A DNA stretch of 29,014 nt. Origin: a virus. The stretch covers positions 1-29,014 of IMG/VR virus record IMGVR_UViG_3300034190_001219; one strand, written 5' to 3'. The position numbers and the translations under genes are program-made. The number at the start of each line of letters is the position of its first letter. Position 1 is the first letter of the stretch. Under the pieces are notes generated by a model. That model did not search any database. It was not told where the DNA came from and saw only the letters and a list, made by a program, of their open reading frames with translations. Below are positions 7,666 to 26,532 of this stretch, in pieces.

Positions 7666-8175
7666 TTAGTTTCTCCGTGCCATTAGACCACCTGCACGTT
7701 CGTCAGCAGCGGTTTTCATTTCCTCAATAACCATTTCATTCTCTGGCTCTTCTTCGTTTACATTATCTTCCATCTTTTTAGCGTCTAGCTTCATAACAGC
7801 CTTATCTACTAAAGAACCACGAACTCTATCATCACCTTCTAGTCCTGATGTATATTTAATATTAGCTGTATCAGCAATAAGGCTAATCAATTCTATAAGC
7901 ACAGGTAGCACAAGCATACCTACGTCAACGGTATGTTTGCCTTCCATGACACTAGAGGACTGCATAGCGTTAGCTACTGTAGTAACAGGTACACCCATCT
8001 CTAATACGTCAAGTAATTGTGAAGAAACTTCCTCTGATTCAATACGTGTAACGTAATAGTCAATGGCTTCTTCAACAGTAGACATTTGAGGAGGCTGTTG
8101 CCACGGACGTGAGCCTAGTTCCATTAACATAGACTGACCCGGAATTGGGGCATCAAGCATTACTTCTTCATCCAT
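7666..8175 (-). CDS. Small virion-associated protein ending in GLMARRN (169 residues)
   Basis: The start is placed at ATG 8175 (MDEEVMLDAPIPGQSML) because GAGGAAA stands about 7 bases upstream and the start overlaps the stop of the preceding gene by 8 bases; the frame extends 19 codons further upstream without a good site. Order: a short Pro-rich N-terminus with APIPGQSM and RPWQQPPQM, a helical domain (TVEEAIDYYVTRIESEE), a hydrophobic helix (about residues 84-100, GMLVLPVLIELISLIAD), and an acidic tail closing with AGGLMARRN. I recall similar proteins in marine phages, always next to long virion proteins, but no role is known. The hydrophobic helix could be an interface in the virion or a membrane contact on ejection. 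Confidence 0.6.
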   Translation of the reverse strand: MDEEVMLDAPIPGQSMLMELGSRPWQQPPQMSTVEEAIDYYVTRIESEEVSSQLLDVLEMGVPVTTVANAMQSSSVMEGKHTVDVGMLVLPVLIELISLIADTANIKYTSGLEGDDRVRGSLVDKAVMKLDAKKMEDNVNEEEPENEMVIEEMKTAADERAGGLMARRN

Positions 8176-8389
8176 TGCGGATTTCCTCACGTTTTTTTCG
8201 TATTGACTCAAAGTACAACATAGCAATATCACCAGACTTTAGTTTACCAGCTTTAGGCTCTTTTGTCATCCTTTTTGGTGAACTTAACAGACCTTTATTT
8301 TGTGCGGGAGCAGGACGCTCTTCATTCATAGCATCTGCTGCCCTTGCCATATTAGTGTACATTATTGGTGCAGGATTAGTTATTGGCAC
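8168..8389 (-). CDS. Small basic protein, GTG start (73 residues)
   Basis: Starts at GTG 8389, inside the last codons of the 1050-residue gene, with GGAG about 7 bases upstream, and its stop overlaps the start of the 169-residue gene. This tight overlap on both sides supports it as real. The product begins MPITNPAPIMYTNMARAADA, has a basic middle with NKGLLSSPKRMTKEP, and ends in a Lys/Arg helix (YFESIRKKREEIRNG). There is no recognised domain. The position among virion genes suggests a minor structural or assembly role. Confidence 0.6.
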   Translation of the reverse strand: MPITNPAPIMYTNMARAADAMNEERPAPAQNKGLLSSPKRMTKEPKAGKLKSGDIAMLYFESIRKKREEIRNG

Positions 8390-11300
8390 GTTTATACTCC
8401 ATTTTATGATTTTTCACTATGCTATCCATTGCAAATTTAACTGCCCTTTTAAGGATAGGTTTATCGCTAATATATTCGGCAAAACTTTCGCCATGTTTCC
8501 CATATAAGTTATACAACCATCTAGGTGCTTTATTAAACATCCAATTACGGAACACTAGCCATGTATAATCTTGAGGACCATAAACTTCACGGGCAACCCA
8601 GCAAAAACTACTTTTAATCCAAGCAGAACCTAATGTACCTATAAGACTACCTAAAGCACTACCTGAAGCTGAACTGCTTTGTGCAGCAGAAGCAGCAGCT
8701 TGCGCATCCGCACTTAGTTCAGCCATAGCCAGACTATTCATTCTTTCTAACTCACTCTCTGCTGACTTCCATGCCCACTCCATCGTATCGCCGTAGTAAT
8801 TCCACAAATTATTATATGCAGTTTTACTAATATCTAAAATAGCATTAGCATTGAGTTCGTTAGCGCGGTTAACTGCAGCCGTATCTGCTGTAGCAACTTG
8901 CCTACGCCACTGAGCATTACTTTGTGCAATTACCAACTGGTTCTGTGCATTGAACTGGTCACGTTGATTGTTTAGTTCAGAATTAAAACGACTAATAGCG
9001 TTGGATTCACCTGCGTTAAACTGTGCTTGAGCATTAGTCTGTGTTGCGTTAAACTGTGAAACTTGTGTACCAAGGTTTTGAAAAAACTGGTCTGTTTGAT
9101 TTTGACTAGTTGCATTAAACTGACGTGCAGCATTAGTAGCAGCTTGGTCTGTAAACATTGACTGCACACGCTGCTGAGACTTAAATAGTTCAGTTTGTTG
9201 TCTATTAGATAGGTTAGCCATATCTGTTTGCAAGAATGACTGAGCATTTTGTACGGCAGTCTGTTGTCTATTATTTAAGTTCTGCGTGTCTAACTGTGCC
9301 AATGCAGATGCTTCAGCCATGACCATTGCCTGTGAGTTAGACAGGTTGTTCAAGTTCATTGTATTCACAGCGCGTGAGTTCTCTAGCTGTACCTGCTGTT
9401 CTGCAGTAAAGTTCATGTTTGCTATATCACCAATACGTGCAGAGTTCTGTACACGTGACTGGAATGCTTGGTCAAACTCTTGACCCATAAACTGCGCACG
9501 TTGTTGTGCTGCTAACATTGCACGTTGCTGGCGATTAGATAAGTTCTGTCCTTCAAACTGTGCTTGTGTAGCGGCATCAGCCTGTGCAATAGGCAATGCA
9601 GACTCCATTGCAGCTTGTACAATGGCCTGTCCTGCAAGAGATGAAGCACCCAAGCCACGTGCAGCCATAGCCGCTGTAGCAGCCCTCATTGCCCCAGCAG
9701 CCCATGGTGGAGTAGCACCCCCTTGGAACTGTTGCATCAATCCATCAAGCTGTCCCTGTACAGTAGCCTGTTGTGTAGGAGTAGCCTGTGCAGCCTGTAC
9801 TTGTGCAGTAAAGGCAGAAGCGGTAGCAGCATCAGCTACACCACTGATTAATTCACCCTGCTGTATCTGACGTTGTACTGGATTATTAATAAGGGAAGCA
9901 TTGCCCTGCGCTGCCTGTAGATTACCTACTGCTGATGTAGTTTGCTGTGCAGCAGTTACTTGCGCACGAGGGTCATTAGGGTCCATCTGCGCAGCTTGAG
10001 TAGCTTTCATAGCTGCATCAACTCCCGGCGCAGCCTGAGTAGCTTGCATAGTATTAGCTGCTGTAGTTGTTGGCCCCGTGGCTATAGTTGTATTAGCAAC
10101 AACACCACTTGCATCACGCTTTCCAGAAACTTCTCCTGTACCTGTAGCAACATTTTGTGATGAATCTGTTTGTGTTTGAGCAGCAATAGTTGTACCACCT
10201 ACGGGAACACCGGGCTGGTACATTTGTTCTACTGTAAACTGTGCTACACCGGGGGTTACAATATTTCCGTCTTCGTCCTTTACTGCTTGTGTCGGTGCAG
10301 TCACTGTAGGTGTAGCCGCTTGAGTACCTGATGGGTTTGTAACAGTACCGCCTACTGCAAACTTCTGTGGTTCAACATAGCCGCCTCTATTTTGTGTTAA
10401 TGTAGTGTTCTGTATTTCATAGGGTGTACCATAACCACCCTGTATTTGTTGTTGGAAGTTAGCTGCCGCCGCACCATAGCCTTGATTAAGTGGGTTATAT
10501 GCTTGTGCTACAGGCTGTCCAGTAATAGGGTCTTGCACGTACTGACCTACAGGCGTAAAATGCGTACCTGATAGGTACGGTGCTTGATAGATAGGTGGCA
10601 GTGATGGTTTATATGGAGCAGGCTCTGGATTAAACGGGTCATCTGGAATTATTGCGGGCTGATGACCAACGATGAGATTTGGCGGCGCATCAGGCACGTA
10701 CTTACCTTCAACAGAAGTTTTATCTCCCCCTCCCATCGGTCCCCGTCTAAGCGCAGCATTGATAGCCCTCTGTTCTTCAGGACTTTTCACATCCCTTTGC
10801 GCCTGCCGCATAACAGCATGTTCATACGTCATGCCGCTGTAGTCGGCTGGCACGTAATTGGGTACTAGATTTGAGCCACCCGGCTGCATTGGCATAGTAC
10901 CAGATTGATTTTGCATCTGAGCAGCAACTTGTTGTGAGTATTGTTGCTGCTGTTGCTGTTGAAGAGCAACCTGTTCTGCAGCGGGGTCAAACTCAGCCTG
11001 TGGCATTTCCTCTATATTTGATTGCTCTGAACCCGTAGGAACAACTTTTTGTTCTTGTTGTGCTTGGGATTCAGCTACACGAACATCGTAAGGTTTTGGT
11101 GCCAACTTATTAACGTATTCTTCTAAACCTTGATTCCAGCCGGGATTATCTTTACTTGCTAACATTCTGGCTCTGGAGGTGTCTTGCTTAGAACCTATAC
11201 GAACTATTACTAGGTCGCCGCCTTCTCCGCGCTGGCTCATATGCCAATAATGTCCGGGTGTACGGGCTGCATCGGTCCGTTTCCTATCACCAAGAAAAAA

Positions 11301-11528
11301 CGGACCTTCACCTACATCGCCGCCCTCATCAAAATACTTTACTTTTTTATTTTTTGCATACCCACCTTTAGCCATCTGTACAGCAGCTTCTTTGAACATA
11401 TTCATACGTGCTTGTTTGGCAGGGTCTTGCTCAATAAATTGTTGAAACTGGTTCATGTCACCAGAATAGCCCATAGCGTTAGCAATTTTATTCATTGCTT
11501 CAGGTTTGAATGCTTTAAACATTGCCAT
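8376..11528 (-). CDS. Long hendecad-repeat virion protein with Cys-initial C-terminal domain (1050 residues)
   Basis: AGGGA precedes ATG 11528; the start lies 3 bases after the upstream stop. In order: an N-terminal module with KKVKYFDEGGDVGEG (FDEGG at 66-70); a Gln/Pro-rich linker with seven consecutive Gln (190-196); EPQKFAVGG (386-394); an Ala/Gln/Thr-rich region; a conserved-looking RGLGASSLAGQAIVQAAM stretch; NLSNRQQ units spaced 22 residues apart; then seven back-to-back 11-residue units of the form QFNAxxxNxxx (803-879), predicting a long hendecad coiled coil; and a compact domain 976-1050 starting CWVAREVYG, with FR and YG motifs. I recall relatives in many marine phages without a proven role. 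A tail-associated rod or an ejected protein both fit. Confidence 0.65.
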   Translation of the reverse strand: MAMFKAFKPEAMNKIANAMGYSGDMNQFQQFIEQDPAKQARMNMFKEAAVQMAKGGYAKNKKVKYFDEGGDVGEGPFFLGDRKRTDAARTPGHYWHMSQRGEGGDLVIVRIGSKQDTSRARMLASKDNPGWNQGLEEYVNKLAPKPYDVRVAESQAQQEQKVVPTGSEQSNIEEMPQAEFDPAAEQVALQQQQQQQYSQQVAAQMQNQSGTMPMQPGGSNLVPNYVPADYSGMTYEHAVMRQAQRDVKSPEEQRAINAALRRGPMGGGDKTSVEGKYVPDAPPNLIVGHQPAIIPDDPFNPEPAPYKPSLPPIYQAPYLSGTHFTPVGQYVQDPITGQPVAQAYNPLNQGYGAAAANFQQQIQGGYGTPYEIQNTTLTQNRGGYVEPQKFAVGGTVTNPSGTQAATPTVTAPTQAVKDEDGNIVTPGVAQFTVEQMYQPGVPVGGTTIAAQTQTDSSQNVATGTGEVSGKRDASGVVANTTIATGPTTTAANTMQATQAAPGVDAAMKATQAAQMDPNDPRAQVTAAQQTTSAVGNLQAAQGNASLINNPVQRQIQQGELISGVADAATASAFTAQVQAAQATPTQQATVQGQLDGLMQQFQGGATPPWAAGAMRAATAAMAARGLGASSLAGQAIVQAAMESALPIAQADAATQAQFEGQNLSNRQQRAMLAAQQRAQFMGQEFDQAFQSRVQNSARIGDIANMNFTAEQQVQLENSRAVNTMNLNNLSNSQAMVMAEASALAQLDTQNLNNRQQTAVQNAQSFLQTDMANLSNRQQTELFKSQQRVQSMFTDQAATNAARQFNATSQNQTDQFFQNLGTQVSQFNATQTNAQAQFNAGESNAISRFNSELNNQRDQFNAQNQLVIAQSNAQWRRQVATADTAAVNRANELNANAILDISKTAYNNLWNYYGDTMEWAWKSAESELERMNSLAMAELSADAQAAASAAQSSSASGSALGSLIGTLGSAWIKSSFCWVAREVYGPQDYTWLVFRNWMFNKAPRWLYNLYGKHGESFAEYISDKPILKRAVKFAMDSIVKNHKMEYKRANN
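8892..9122 (-). repeat. Seven tandem 11-residue (33-bp) hendecad units
   Basis: Within the 1050-residue protein, residues 803-879 divide without gaps into seven 11-mers whose first four residues are QFNA, QFFQ, QFNA, QFNA, RFNS, QFNA and QSNA. Two more in-phase units (LFKSQQRVQSM and FTDQAATNAAR) precede them. The DNA has diverged at silent sites, so the periodicity is kept at protein level. Confidence 0.85.
10941..10961 (-). repeat. CAA/CAG run encoding seven glutamines
   Basis: Mixed CAA and CAG codons encode residues 190-196 of the 1050-residue protein, in a Gln-rich linker. Confidence 0.8.
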
Positions 11529-24220: not shown

Positions 24221-24418
24221 TTATTGTCTTGCGGCTAACCCTTTACCACGCTCTGCAATAGGCAGCATAAACTGACCAAGAGCAGCATCAAATTCAGGCC
24301 CAAACACTTTACCAATAACAGCACGTGCTGGACCATTCATTAACTTACGAATAATTTCTTTTTCATCATCCGTAAGATTAGCATAATTATTTCGTATATC
24401 TTGAATATCAATTTCCAT
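24221..24418 (-). CDS. Small helical protein ending in GLAARQ (65 residues)
   Basis: Start overlaps the previous stop as TAATG, so it is probably co-translated with the 704-residue gene. Sequence: DIQDIRNNYANLTDDEKEII, then RKLMNGPARAVIGKVFGPEF and a C-terminus AERGKGLAARQ. The whole protein is predicted helical. The last residues resemble the GLMAR(R)N tag on two proteins at the other end of the block. It lies between the portal group and the scaffold, so a head-assembly or minor head role is plausible; no family with known function recognised. Confidence 0.6.
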   Translation of the reverse strand: MEIDIQDIRNNYANLTDDEKEIIRKLMNGPARAVIGKVFGPEFDAALGQFMLPIAERGKGLAARQ

Positions 24419-26532
24419 TATTTAATCTTTCCTACAATGTAACATAGAGGTTCTAAAATTGCTCTTTCAATTGCTCCACGCAAATGACGCTTACCATGTT
24501 TCTGCATCCAGATGTCTGCAGTACGTCTACGTGCAATACCTTCAAGCATGTTCCGAACAAACATATTATACCATGTAGTATCCTTATAGGCAAGTTTAAT
24601 CAGTGGCTTAAAGATACGGTGATATCCTTTTTGATATGCAGGGTCCATGTTTTTACTATGTTGTAGCCAAACTGTTTGACGGAATGAACCAAAGCCGTAA
24701 GCGTTGTTCATAGCGGTGCATACGATTTTGTCGTTGCCGCCGCCACCAGATGCTTCATCTGCTTCTTGCGCTTCTGCCGCAGCCATAGCGTCCAAATCAG
24801 CAGTTGTGCCACCCGGCATACTTTGGTCATCAGCTATATTACCAAACTCATCACCATAATCTTTACCTGCTTTTTCTGCATCTTTTGTTGCTTTATCGGC
24901 TGCATCCTTGGCTGCTGAGACATCATCGTCTGTAGGTGTTCCCGTTACACCATCATCACGAGATTCATTACCTCTTTGTCTAGCACGTTCTGCAGCAAGC
25001 GCATCAGCTTTTGCCTCTGCTGTTCTTGCTGCTTCTAATTCAGCATTCATACGGTCACGAGCAGATTGACTCATAACAACACCTGACTTACTTGTAACGG
25101 CTTTACCATCTTTATCCTTAACTGTCCCAGATTCTTTAGTTTGTGCTGCATCATCTCGATATGCATCTGCAGCAGCCCTGTATCCAGCTATTGCTTTTCC
25201 TACTATTCCTTGATTAGTAATATTATCTGATGTATATCCTAATCCTTGTAAAGCACTGACTGCAGCATCTTTAACTACTGCTGTATAAGCAGGGTTATTT
25301 ATTTCTTTCGATAGTGCAACAGTAACATCCTCACCTTTTTTAGCGGCGGCATGGGCTGCTGAAATCATATTGCCATACATCGTAGCTTGTTCACTAGTTT
25401 GTAGCTGACTTGCTCTTGTAAAACCTAAAGTAGTTAGGGCTGCTTCTTTTCCTTGCTGTCCAGCAACAGCCATATCATTCATTGTAGCTTTCGTAAAACC
25501 AAATTGTTTTGCTAATGCTCCGCCTATTGCACCCGTAGGACTAATAGAACCTAATTGATACATAGCTTGGTCAATTGTTGCACTGCGCAATGCTTTATTA
25601 GACATACCAAATGTTTTATTGCCACCAAACGCATTGGCGTTATTTTGTATATCTTTAGTTAAAAACCCGCCAACCTCAGACATAGTAGAAGAAGGTGATG
25701 TATATCCTGTAACAGTACCCGTAACAGAAGGAGATGTTTGCCCCCCAGAAAATCCTCCTCCATCTCCTGCTTCTGCACGTTCTGTCGTTGGAGGTTGTGG
25801 TGTAATTTCTGCTTCTACTTCTTCTTCTTCTTTCGGTTTATTTGGGTCGTAGTCTATGTAAGGAACCCCCCTTCCAATTGTATCTTGGAATGAAGGCATA
25901 TTTATTGTTGGGCTAGTATACGGTGTAAACTTTGTTCCTGCCGGTTGGAACTGAGCAGAAGCAGCTTGTAGGGGCGATGCTGCTTGCCTTGCTGTTGGCG
26001 TTGTTGGTGCTGGTAATGTTGGTGGTGCCGCTGGTGTTGTTGATGGTCGCGTCATAGTGTAATTAAAAACACCTGCCGCTTGTGCCGCTGCCGGATTATT
26101 ATATGCGGTTCCATCAGGACCATATACAACAACTTGTGTACCTGCTTGACCACCCGGCAATGCTACGCCACCCACATTAAACTCCTGTGGCTCACCGTCA
26201 TCTTCTATCTCAAGGTCATCGATGTCAAATGGGATGCCATCTGGAATAATAGCTTCTTCACTATTACCCATTTGACCCATATCTTCCATACGTTGAAGAC
26301 CTATCTTAGCTTCATCACGTAGTGCCATCATTTTATCTAAGCCATGATACCGCACTACATCTGCTGGCATAACAAATTCCCCCTCGCTCAGTTGAGCAGG
26401 AATGTCATCACGAACTTCTTCTTGGGTAGAACCAACAGGTACATTATTACCCGATATAGGGTCTACTGTACCGCCTTCTTGCATAAGACCGCCCTCATCA
26501 AAAAGTTCCATTTGTTTTGACATTTTGTTCAT
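24418..26532 (-). CDS. Virion protein with FDEGG motif and Cys-initial C-terminal domain (704 residues)
   Basis: N-terminus with QMELFDEGGLMQEGG (FDEGG at 11-15), then a conserved-looking module RDDIPAQLSEGEFVMPADVV ending in RYHGLDKMMALRDEA, then EPQEFNVGG (114-122) and a Thr/Pro-rich linker (PSTTPAAPPTLPAPTTPTAR). The middle is Ala-rich and helical; after about residue 460 there is a Lys/Glu/Ala coiled-coil region. The C-terminal domain 605-704 begins CTAMNNAYGFGSFRQ and contains QKGYHRIFKPL and ILEPLCYIVGK. I recall these modules in marine phages, where they are called structural without proof. It shares two N-terminal motifs with the 1050-residue protein. It is encoded next to the portal, so it may sit in the head or at the portal vertex. 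Confidence 0.6.
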   Translation of the reverse strand: MNKMSKQMELFDEGGLMQEGGTVDPISGNNVPVGSTQEEVRDDIPAQLSEGEFVMPADVVRYHGLDKMMALRDEAKIGLQRMEDMGQMGNSEEAIIPDGIPFDIDDLEIEDDGEPQEFNVGGVALPGGQAGTQVVVYGPDGTAYNNPAAAQAAGVFNYTMTRPSTTPAAPPTLPAPTTPTARQAASPLQAASAQFQPAGTKFTPYTSPTINMPSFQDTIGRGVPYIDYDPNKPKEEEEVEAEITPQPPTTERAEAGDGGGFSGGQTSPSVTGTVTGYTSPSSTMSEVGGFLTKDIQNNANAFGGNKTFGMSNKALRSATIDQAMYQLGSISPTGAIGGALAKQFGFTKATMNDMAVAGQQGKEAALTTLGFTRASQLQTSEQATMYGNMISAAHAAAKKGEDVTVALSKEINNPAYTAVVKDAAVSALQGLGYTSDNITNQGIVGKAIAGYRAAADAYRDDAAQTKESGTVKDKDGKAVTSKSGVVMSQSARDRMNAELEAARTAEAKADALAAERARQRGNESRDDGVTGTPTDDDVSAAKDAADKATKDAEKAGKDYGDEFGNIADDQSMPGGTTADLDAMAAAEAQEADEASGGGGNDKIVCTAMNNAYGFGSFRQTVWLQHSKNMDPAYQKGYHRIFKPLIKLAYKDTTWYNMFVRNMLEGIARRRTADIWMQKHGKRHLRGAIERAILEPLCYIVGKIK

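Follow-up and report, generated by a model that had tools for sequence, protein, structure and literature searches.

This locus raises the question of what the cysteine-headed end of a large phage protein is related to, and of what it might contribute to the protein that carries it. The window, i.e. the whole 29,014-nucleotide stretch of viral DNA analysed here, is a 29-kb record syntenic with Puniceispirillum phage HMO-2011, and HMO-2011-type phages are podoviruses (PMC6918029). Its minus strand reads portal, scaffold, coat and tail genes, next the fibres, after which come the genes for proteins of 1,050, 188, 699 and 1,164 aa. The 1,050-residue protein ends in a stretch from Cys976 to Asn1050 whose translation from the ORF is as the first-pass annotation had given it, and which is hereafter referred to as the CWVARE module. 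The features on which the following argument is built are these:

8376 to 11528, minus strand: gene of the 1,050-aa carrier, corresponding to HMO-2011 gp25 (gene order, synteny).
8379 to 8603, minus strand: CWVARE (CFI-box-like) C-terminal module, residues 976-1050, CWVAREVYGPQDYTWLVFRNWMFNKAPRWLYNLYGKHGESFAEYISDKPILKRAVKFAMDSIVKNHKMEYKRANN (sequence, profiles, AlphaFold2 model).
8601 to 8603, minus strand: codon of the invariant Cys976, the sole cysteine of the 1,050-aa protein (translation, alignment).
8580 to 8600, minus strand: predicted helix 1, WVAREVY (AlphaFold2 model).
8532 to 8564, minus strand: predicted helix 2, TWLVFRNWMFN (AlphaFold2 model).
8469 to 8522, minus strand: predicted helix 3, RWLYNLYGKHGESFAEYI (AlphaFold2 model; hydrophobic moment above that of shuffles).
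8385 to 8459, minus strand: predicted helix 4, PILKRAVKFAMDSIVKNH... (AlphaFold2 model).
8604 to 8663, minus strand: glycine-zipper-like segment GSALGSLIGTLGSAWIKSSF, directly before the module (alignment, pattern).
8664 to 8912, minus strand: end of the conserved core (QWRRQVATAD...), used as query for homologs with and without the module (DNA pattern search).

The module is no chance reading of the sequence, because relatives are encoded on 325 viral stretches in our viral contig scan and an alignment of 66 copies from phages and planctomycetes has 18 invariant columns (C W V A R E, YG, W, FR, W, P, Y, G, P, K, M); invariance of this extent across the two groups points to strong selection. 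Other properties of the window copy are less general. No cysteine precedes that of the box in any of the 80 phage relatives first fetched (80/80), and a lone cysteine as an adaptation to the module was considered and dropped since the module-less homologs described below are also free of cysteine, the absence of other cysteines thus being a property of the carrier. Aromatic residues make up 19% of the phage modules, whose net charge averages +7.4, whereas planctomycete modules average a net charge of 0, so that basic charge is not common to the module as a whole. Of the four helices predicted for it, a single one clearly exceeds its shuffled versions in amphipathicity. In the window the module forms the extreme C-terminus of the chain; it lies internally in the phage protein L287 and at one planctomycete site, and these internal planctomycete copies mean that it need not be C-terminal.

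The first-pass annotation had likened this tail to the bacterial CFI-box-CTERM domain (NF041770), and several lines of evidence make homology between the two almost certain. Among 18,950 NCBIfam models NF041770 was the only match of the excised window domain (E 0.005, 16.6 bits), spanning model positions 1-69 of 69, and the full-length 1,050-aa protein had no match in the same collection. It was also the sole NCBIfam match of eight further phage or planctomycete modules (12-17.4 bits), and a bridging phage sequence (L311/L312), with CWVAREIYG in its front half and the CFI-like YYAKAPALAERI in its rear half, scored 22.5 bits at E 7.5e-5 (L311). With CWVARE modules at 12-22 bits all of these scores stay under the curated cut-off of 40 bits; CWVARE is therefore a diverged sister subfamily of CFI-box and not a formal member by the NCBI threshold. 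Accordingly, the literal box CF[IV]ATA[AVC][YF]G is absent from the window module, which reads CWVAREVYG and keeps the Cys, the Ala and the Tyr-Gly.

For profile comparison a CFI-box alignment (A2) was built from planctomycete genome members, 32 of 294 genomes being above the NF041770 cut-off; approximate consensus-like CFI-box queries served as bait only and all comparisons used database sequences. The phage module profile aligned with A2 at an hhalign probability of 96% (score 46.6, about 24% identity), and scores of 50-51 were obtained with planctomycete copies added. These values of 47-51 (96-97%) lie far above the maximum of 15.7 reached by 300 column-shuffled decoys and the 10 of a reversed profile, and support the CFI-box reading. 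The A2 HMM gave a median of 20.2 bits on 198 modules (shuffled copies: median -1.2, maximum 9.7), and across the window its best-scoring ORF was the 1,050-aa protein. Both families have in common a leading invariant Cys, an Ala at +3, an aromatic-Gly pair at +7/+8, an Arg in helix 2, an aromatic helix 3, the four-helix order and, mostly, a place at the chain end behind a linker. CWVARE differs in the motif that replaces CF[IV]ATA, in strictly conserved Trp residues, in a KHGE-type helix 3 and in its virion and planctomycete carriers. The agreement that had been claimed in order and spacing holds for the order (Cys, YG, FR, Pro, aromatic helix) but not for the spacing, the phage domain being about 5 residues shorter between YG and helix 3; likewise FR is present, but the profile alignment pairs it with the invariant LR of the CFI-box LRxFRD rather than with FRD. 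No mention of CFI-box-CTERM was found in the literature searched. As a separate observation, three planctomycete CFI-box proteins (L165, L172 and L174) have a hydrophobic, membrane-spanning-like segment and basic residues after the box, resembling tripartite sorting signals.

The predicted folds of the two domains also appear to agree. In the AlphaFold models the phage domain has helices at 22-28, 34-44, 48-65 and 69-93, with the Cys at 21, and a viral CFI-box domain has them in the same order at 7-13, 19-32, 36-58 and 60-85, with the Cys at 6. When the CFI-box model was compared with BFVD by Foldseek, ranks 1 and 2 were taken by two phage module proteins (TM 0.62 and 0.58; rmsd 2.9 and 2.8), the same two that the CWVARE model matched at 52% and 49% identity; because the Foldseek E-values for the CFI-box model exceed 1, the fold argument rests on ranking and TM-scores. 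A known PDB fold for the module was rejected: the Foldseek search of the PDB with the module model returned nothing below E 3.7, the best hit of a further PDB comparison (Z 4.2, VEL1 VEL domain) was within the range of unrelated helical bundles, and such weak matches are evidence for neither novelty nor kinship of the fold. The CFI-box model likewise had no match in the PDB. A chance similarity of two short helical domains, to which the score under the NCBI cut-off and an identity of only about 24% could be ascribed, is very improbable, the decoys, the shuffles, the bridging L311/L312 and the fold search all being contrary to it.

A diverged copy of the domain had also been suggested in the 704-residue protein of the window. 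The stretch in question, CTAMNNAYGFGSFRQ, is there, but its relation to the module was not borne out by profile: hhalign gave 0.6% (score 12.5) with CWVARE and 1.3% (score 14.6) with CFI-box, both inside the decoy range, and there was no NCBIfam CFI match. This protein (24418-26532, minus strand), encoded between portal and scaffold, has a strongly conserved 100-aa C-terminus of its own (CTAMNNAYGFGSFRQ...RRRTADIW...ILEPLCYIVGK), which was found in 71 viral contigs and had no credible Pfam, PHROG or NCBIfam match.

As for the protein that bears the module in the window, its position and the analogy with other carriers suggest that it is likely an internal or ejection-type virion protein. Its gene lies downstream of the tail genes and adjoins those of other large virion-type proteins, like the genes of the podoviral ejection and internal virion proteins (P22 gp7/gp16/gp20, T7 gp14-gp16; PHROG 4287), with which it also has a low-complexity helical core and a glycine-rich hydrophobic end in common. 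Unlike two other module carriers, which match PHROG 4287 'DNA ejection protein' (E 9e-14 and 6e-18), the window carrier has no direct profile match to this class: its best PHROG match was no better than E 0.09 and its core compared with the PHROG 4287-type carriers at a background hhalign score, which is why the assignment is argued from position and analogy. The literature search on HMO-2011 virion proteomics yielded nothing on the gp25-counterpart gene. We know of no CWVARE-like module in the model phages. In the stretch separating the genes of the 1,050- and 699-aa proteins, small ORFs (8168-8389 and 7666-8232, minus strand) are kept in relatives, with the conserved motifs NKGLLSS... and DAPIPGQSL..ELG.RPWQ.P; the GTG codon listed as start of the 188-aa ORF probably lies too far upstream, translation more likely beginning at MDEEVMLDAPIPG.

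Comparison of the carrier with its homologs strongly argues that the module is mobile, i.e. that phage and planctomycete proteins have acquired, lost and exchanged it as a whole. Homologs were sought with a nucleotide pattern encoding QWRRQ[IV]ATAD, a core motif independent of the module, and at least 80 loci were retrieved; the proportions are rough because counts cover only the matches listed. Among these, 75 homologs were complete: 18 with the module, 56 without it, stopping 95-130 residues past the core motif, and one (L375, of the same phage family as the window) ending in Peptidase_S74 (E 3.9e-14), a domain (PF13884) for which the window protein itself had no Pfam match. The core tree shows 14-15 changes of the module label, no fewer than 8 of which are forced by well-supported branches, to be read in the knowledge that this is a fast tree and that recombination within the core is possible. 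The window protein and L389 are near neighbours on this tree and differ in the module. Loss through a recent stop mutation was rejected, as the five module-less homologs with enough downstream DNA (L318, L331, L342, L364 and L389) end cleanly, with no module remnant behind the stop. A glycine-zipper pattern precedes the module in 16 of the 18 carriers and is seen in 11 of the 57 others, the S74-ended one included (p 1.6e-7, with kinship ignored).

The module is not confined to this core. Other phage carriers form several mutually dissimilar groups without similarity to the window core detectable by hhalign, and a single carrier family was therefore rejected. Relatives of one PHROG 4287 carrier in named phages end either in Peptidase_S74 (Ochrobactrum phage vB_OspP_OH p40, MW202496, Octadecabacter DB2) or in nothing. 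Peptidase_S74, a self-cleaving domain known as the chaperone of endosialidase, is an intramolecular chaperone of fibres; its occurrence is not limited to tail fibres, as phage proteins of ejection type (L375, L433-L435) also terminate in it. The module occupies the same C-terminal slot as S74 on related carriers of phages and planctomycetes, but has no sequence or fold similarity to it and gives no sign of self-cleavage. In one fibre-like phage protein of 438 aa (L287, IMGVR_UViG_3300045999_010435) it stands directly before a Hint domain which is without the usual first Cys and ends in VHN. Hint/intein domains (PF07591) resemble the module in the Cys at their start; they differ from it in fold, the module being predicted as all-helical, and the excised window domain had no Pfam match, hence none to Hint.

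Outside phages, a scan of genome contigs for exact CWVAREVY, which misses variants such as CWVAREIY, gave 99 stretches, those among the matches listed being nearly all planctomycete MAGs; the sequences analysed come largely from metagenomes. Planctomycete modules are approximately 50-60% identical to the phage module, are optional on exported proteins and are again swapped with S74, Peptidase_S74 being confirmed in L090 (E 3.7e-12). In the bacteria the module is borne by three kinds of protein: one with Poly_export (PF02563), one of about 1,550 aa with a VWA domain, and one that begins with a signal-like stretch. The VWA protein offers two optional sites for the module, each behind a glycine-rich run, and some copies carry two modules (e.g. 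L084 and L089), either site being filled or empty independently of the other: among 31 module-bearing copies 12 were occupied at both sites, 16 at the C-terminal one only, two internally with S74 in addition, and one internally only, while 8 orthologs recovered by the core search had the module at neither site. Frequent exchange between phages and bacteria was discarded as an interpretation, since the module tree, itself short and poorly resolved, needs only 2 phage/planctomycete changes. Phage-type module proteins also occurred in MAGs labelled Pirellulales and Opitutia (L115, L120), where phage contigs have probably been binned.

What the module does can be approached from these carriers. 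Our overall explanation, that of an optional end module related to the CFI-box which serves in docking or tethering, joins a well-supported homology to a weak mechanism and is offered as tentative, its probability as a whole falling somewhat short of even. Its mechanistic part is doubtful taken by itself, although it ranks first among the roles considered: the module would be a cysteine-headed tether or cap, not an enzyme, docking the carrier end at a membrane or on a partner. In the phage the module may take up its fold at the carrier end, just after the glycine-zipper segment; upon ejection of the carrier the zipper would enter the cell envelope, and the aromatic, basic helices together with the Cys would hold the carrier end to the membrane surface or to a partner protein. 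A tether of this kind is favoured by the association with the zipper, by the aromatic helices and by carriers of an exported or ejected type. As an optional part, the module would adapt its carrier to a given envelope and would not itself provide the core ejection function.

An alternative ranked second, and rather unlikely, is that the module assists folding, oligomerisation or procapsid entry of its carrier, much as S74 does on fibres, with no role at membranes. This is favoured by the C-terminal slot common to both domains in L375, in the relatives of the PHROG 4287 carrier and in the planctomycete protein; yet the module has no kinship to S74 in sequence or fold, most homologs among those listed have neither, and the role of S74 on ejection proteins is itself putative. 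Thiol chemistry, by which the Cys would cleave the preceding chain or link the chain covalently to lipid, glycan or protein, has known precedents in Hint domains and in Cys-bearing sorting signals. There is room for it in view of the invariant Cys (66/66 CWVARE and 22/22 CFI-box sequences) and of the Hint neighbour without a first Cys of its own in L287, and the hydrophobic segment with basic residues after some CFI-boxes points the same way. We consider it improbable, however, as CWVARE and CFI-box have no invariant His, Asp or Glu in common and thus no usual catalytic dyad, the predicted fold is all-helical and L287 is a lone case. Finally, the many gains and losses and the insertion of the module into glycine-rich linkers of several unrelated proteins could be those of a hitchhiker which spreads by recombination at chain ends and such linkers and is tolerated without useful function, but the selection indicated by the 18 invariant columns and the fact that no DNA mobility signature was seen make this quite improbable.

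The docking cap or tether thus remains our first, tentative choice. It is tempting to go further and view CWVARE and CFI-box as a single superfamily of portable end modules, each headed by a cysteine whose reactivity would serve to process or anchor the carrier. This is a long shot; if true, such modules would form a third class next to S74 chaperones and Hint domains, in phage ejection proteins as well as in exported bacterial proteins. That the module and S74 share a slot in settings as different as phages and planctomycetes restricts the roles it can have, and its function becomes testable through natural pairs of one protein that differ in the module. CFI-box-CTERM, a named bacterial domain, now has a relative on virion-type proteins of an abundant group of marine phages.
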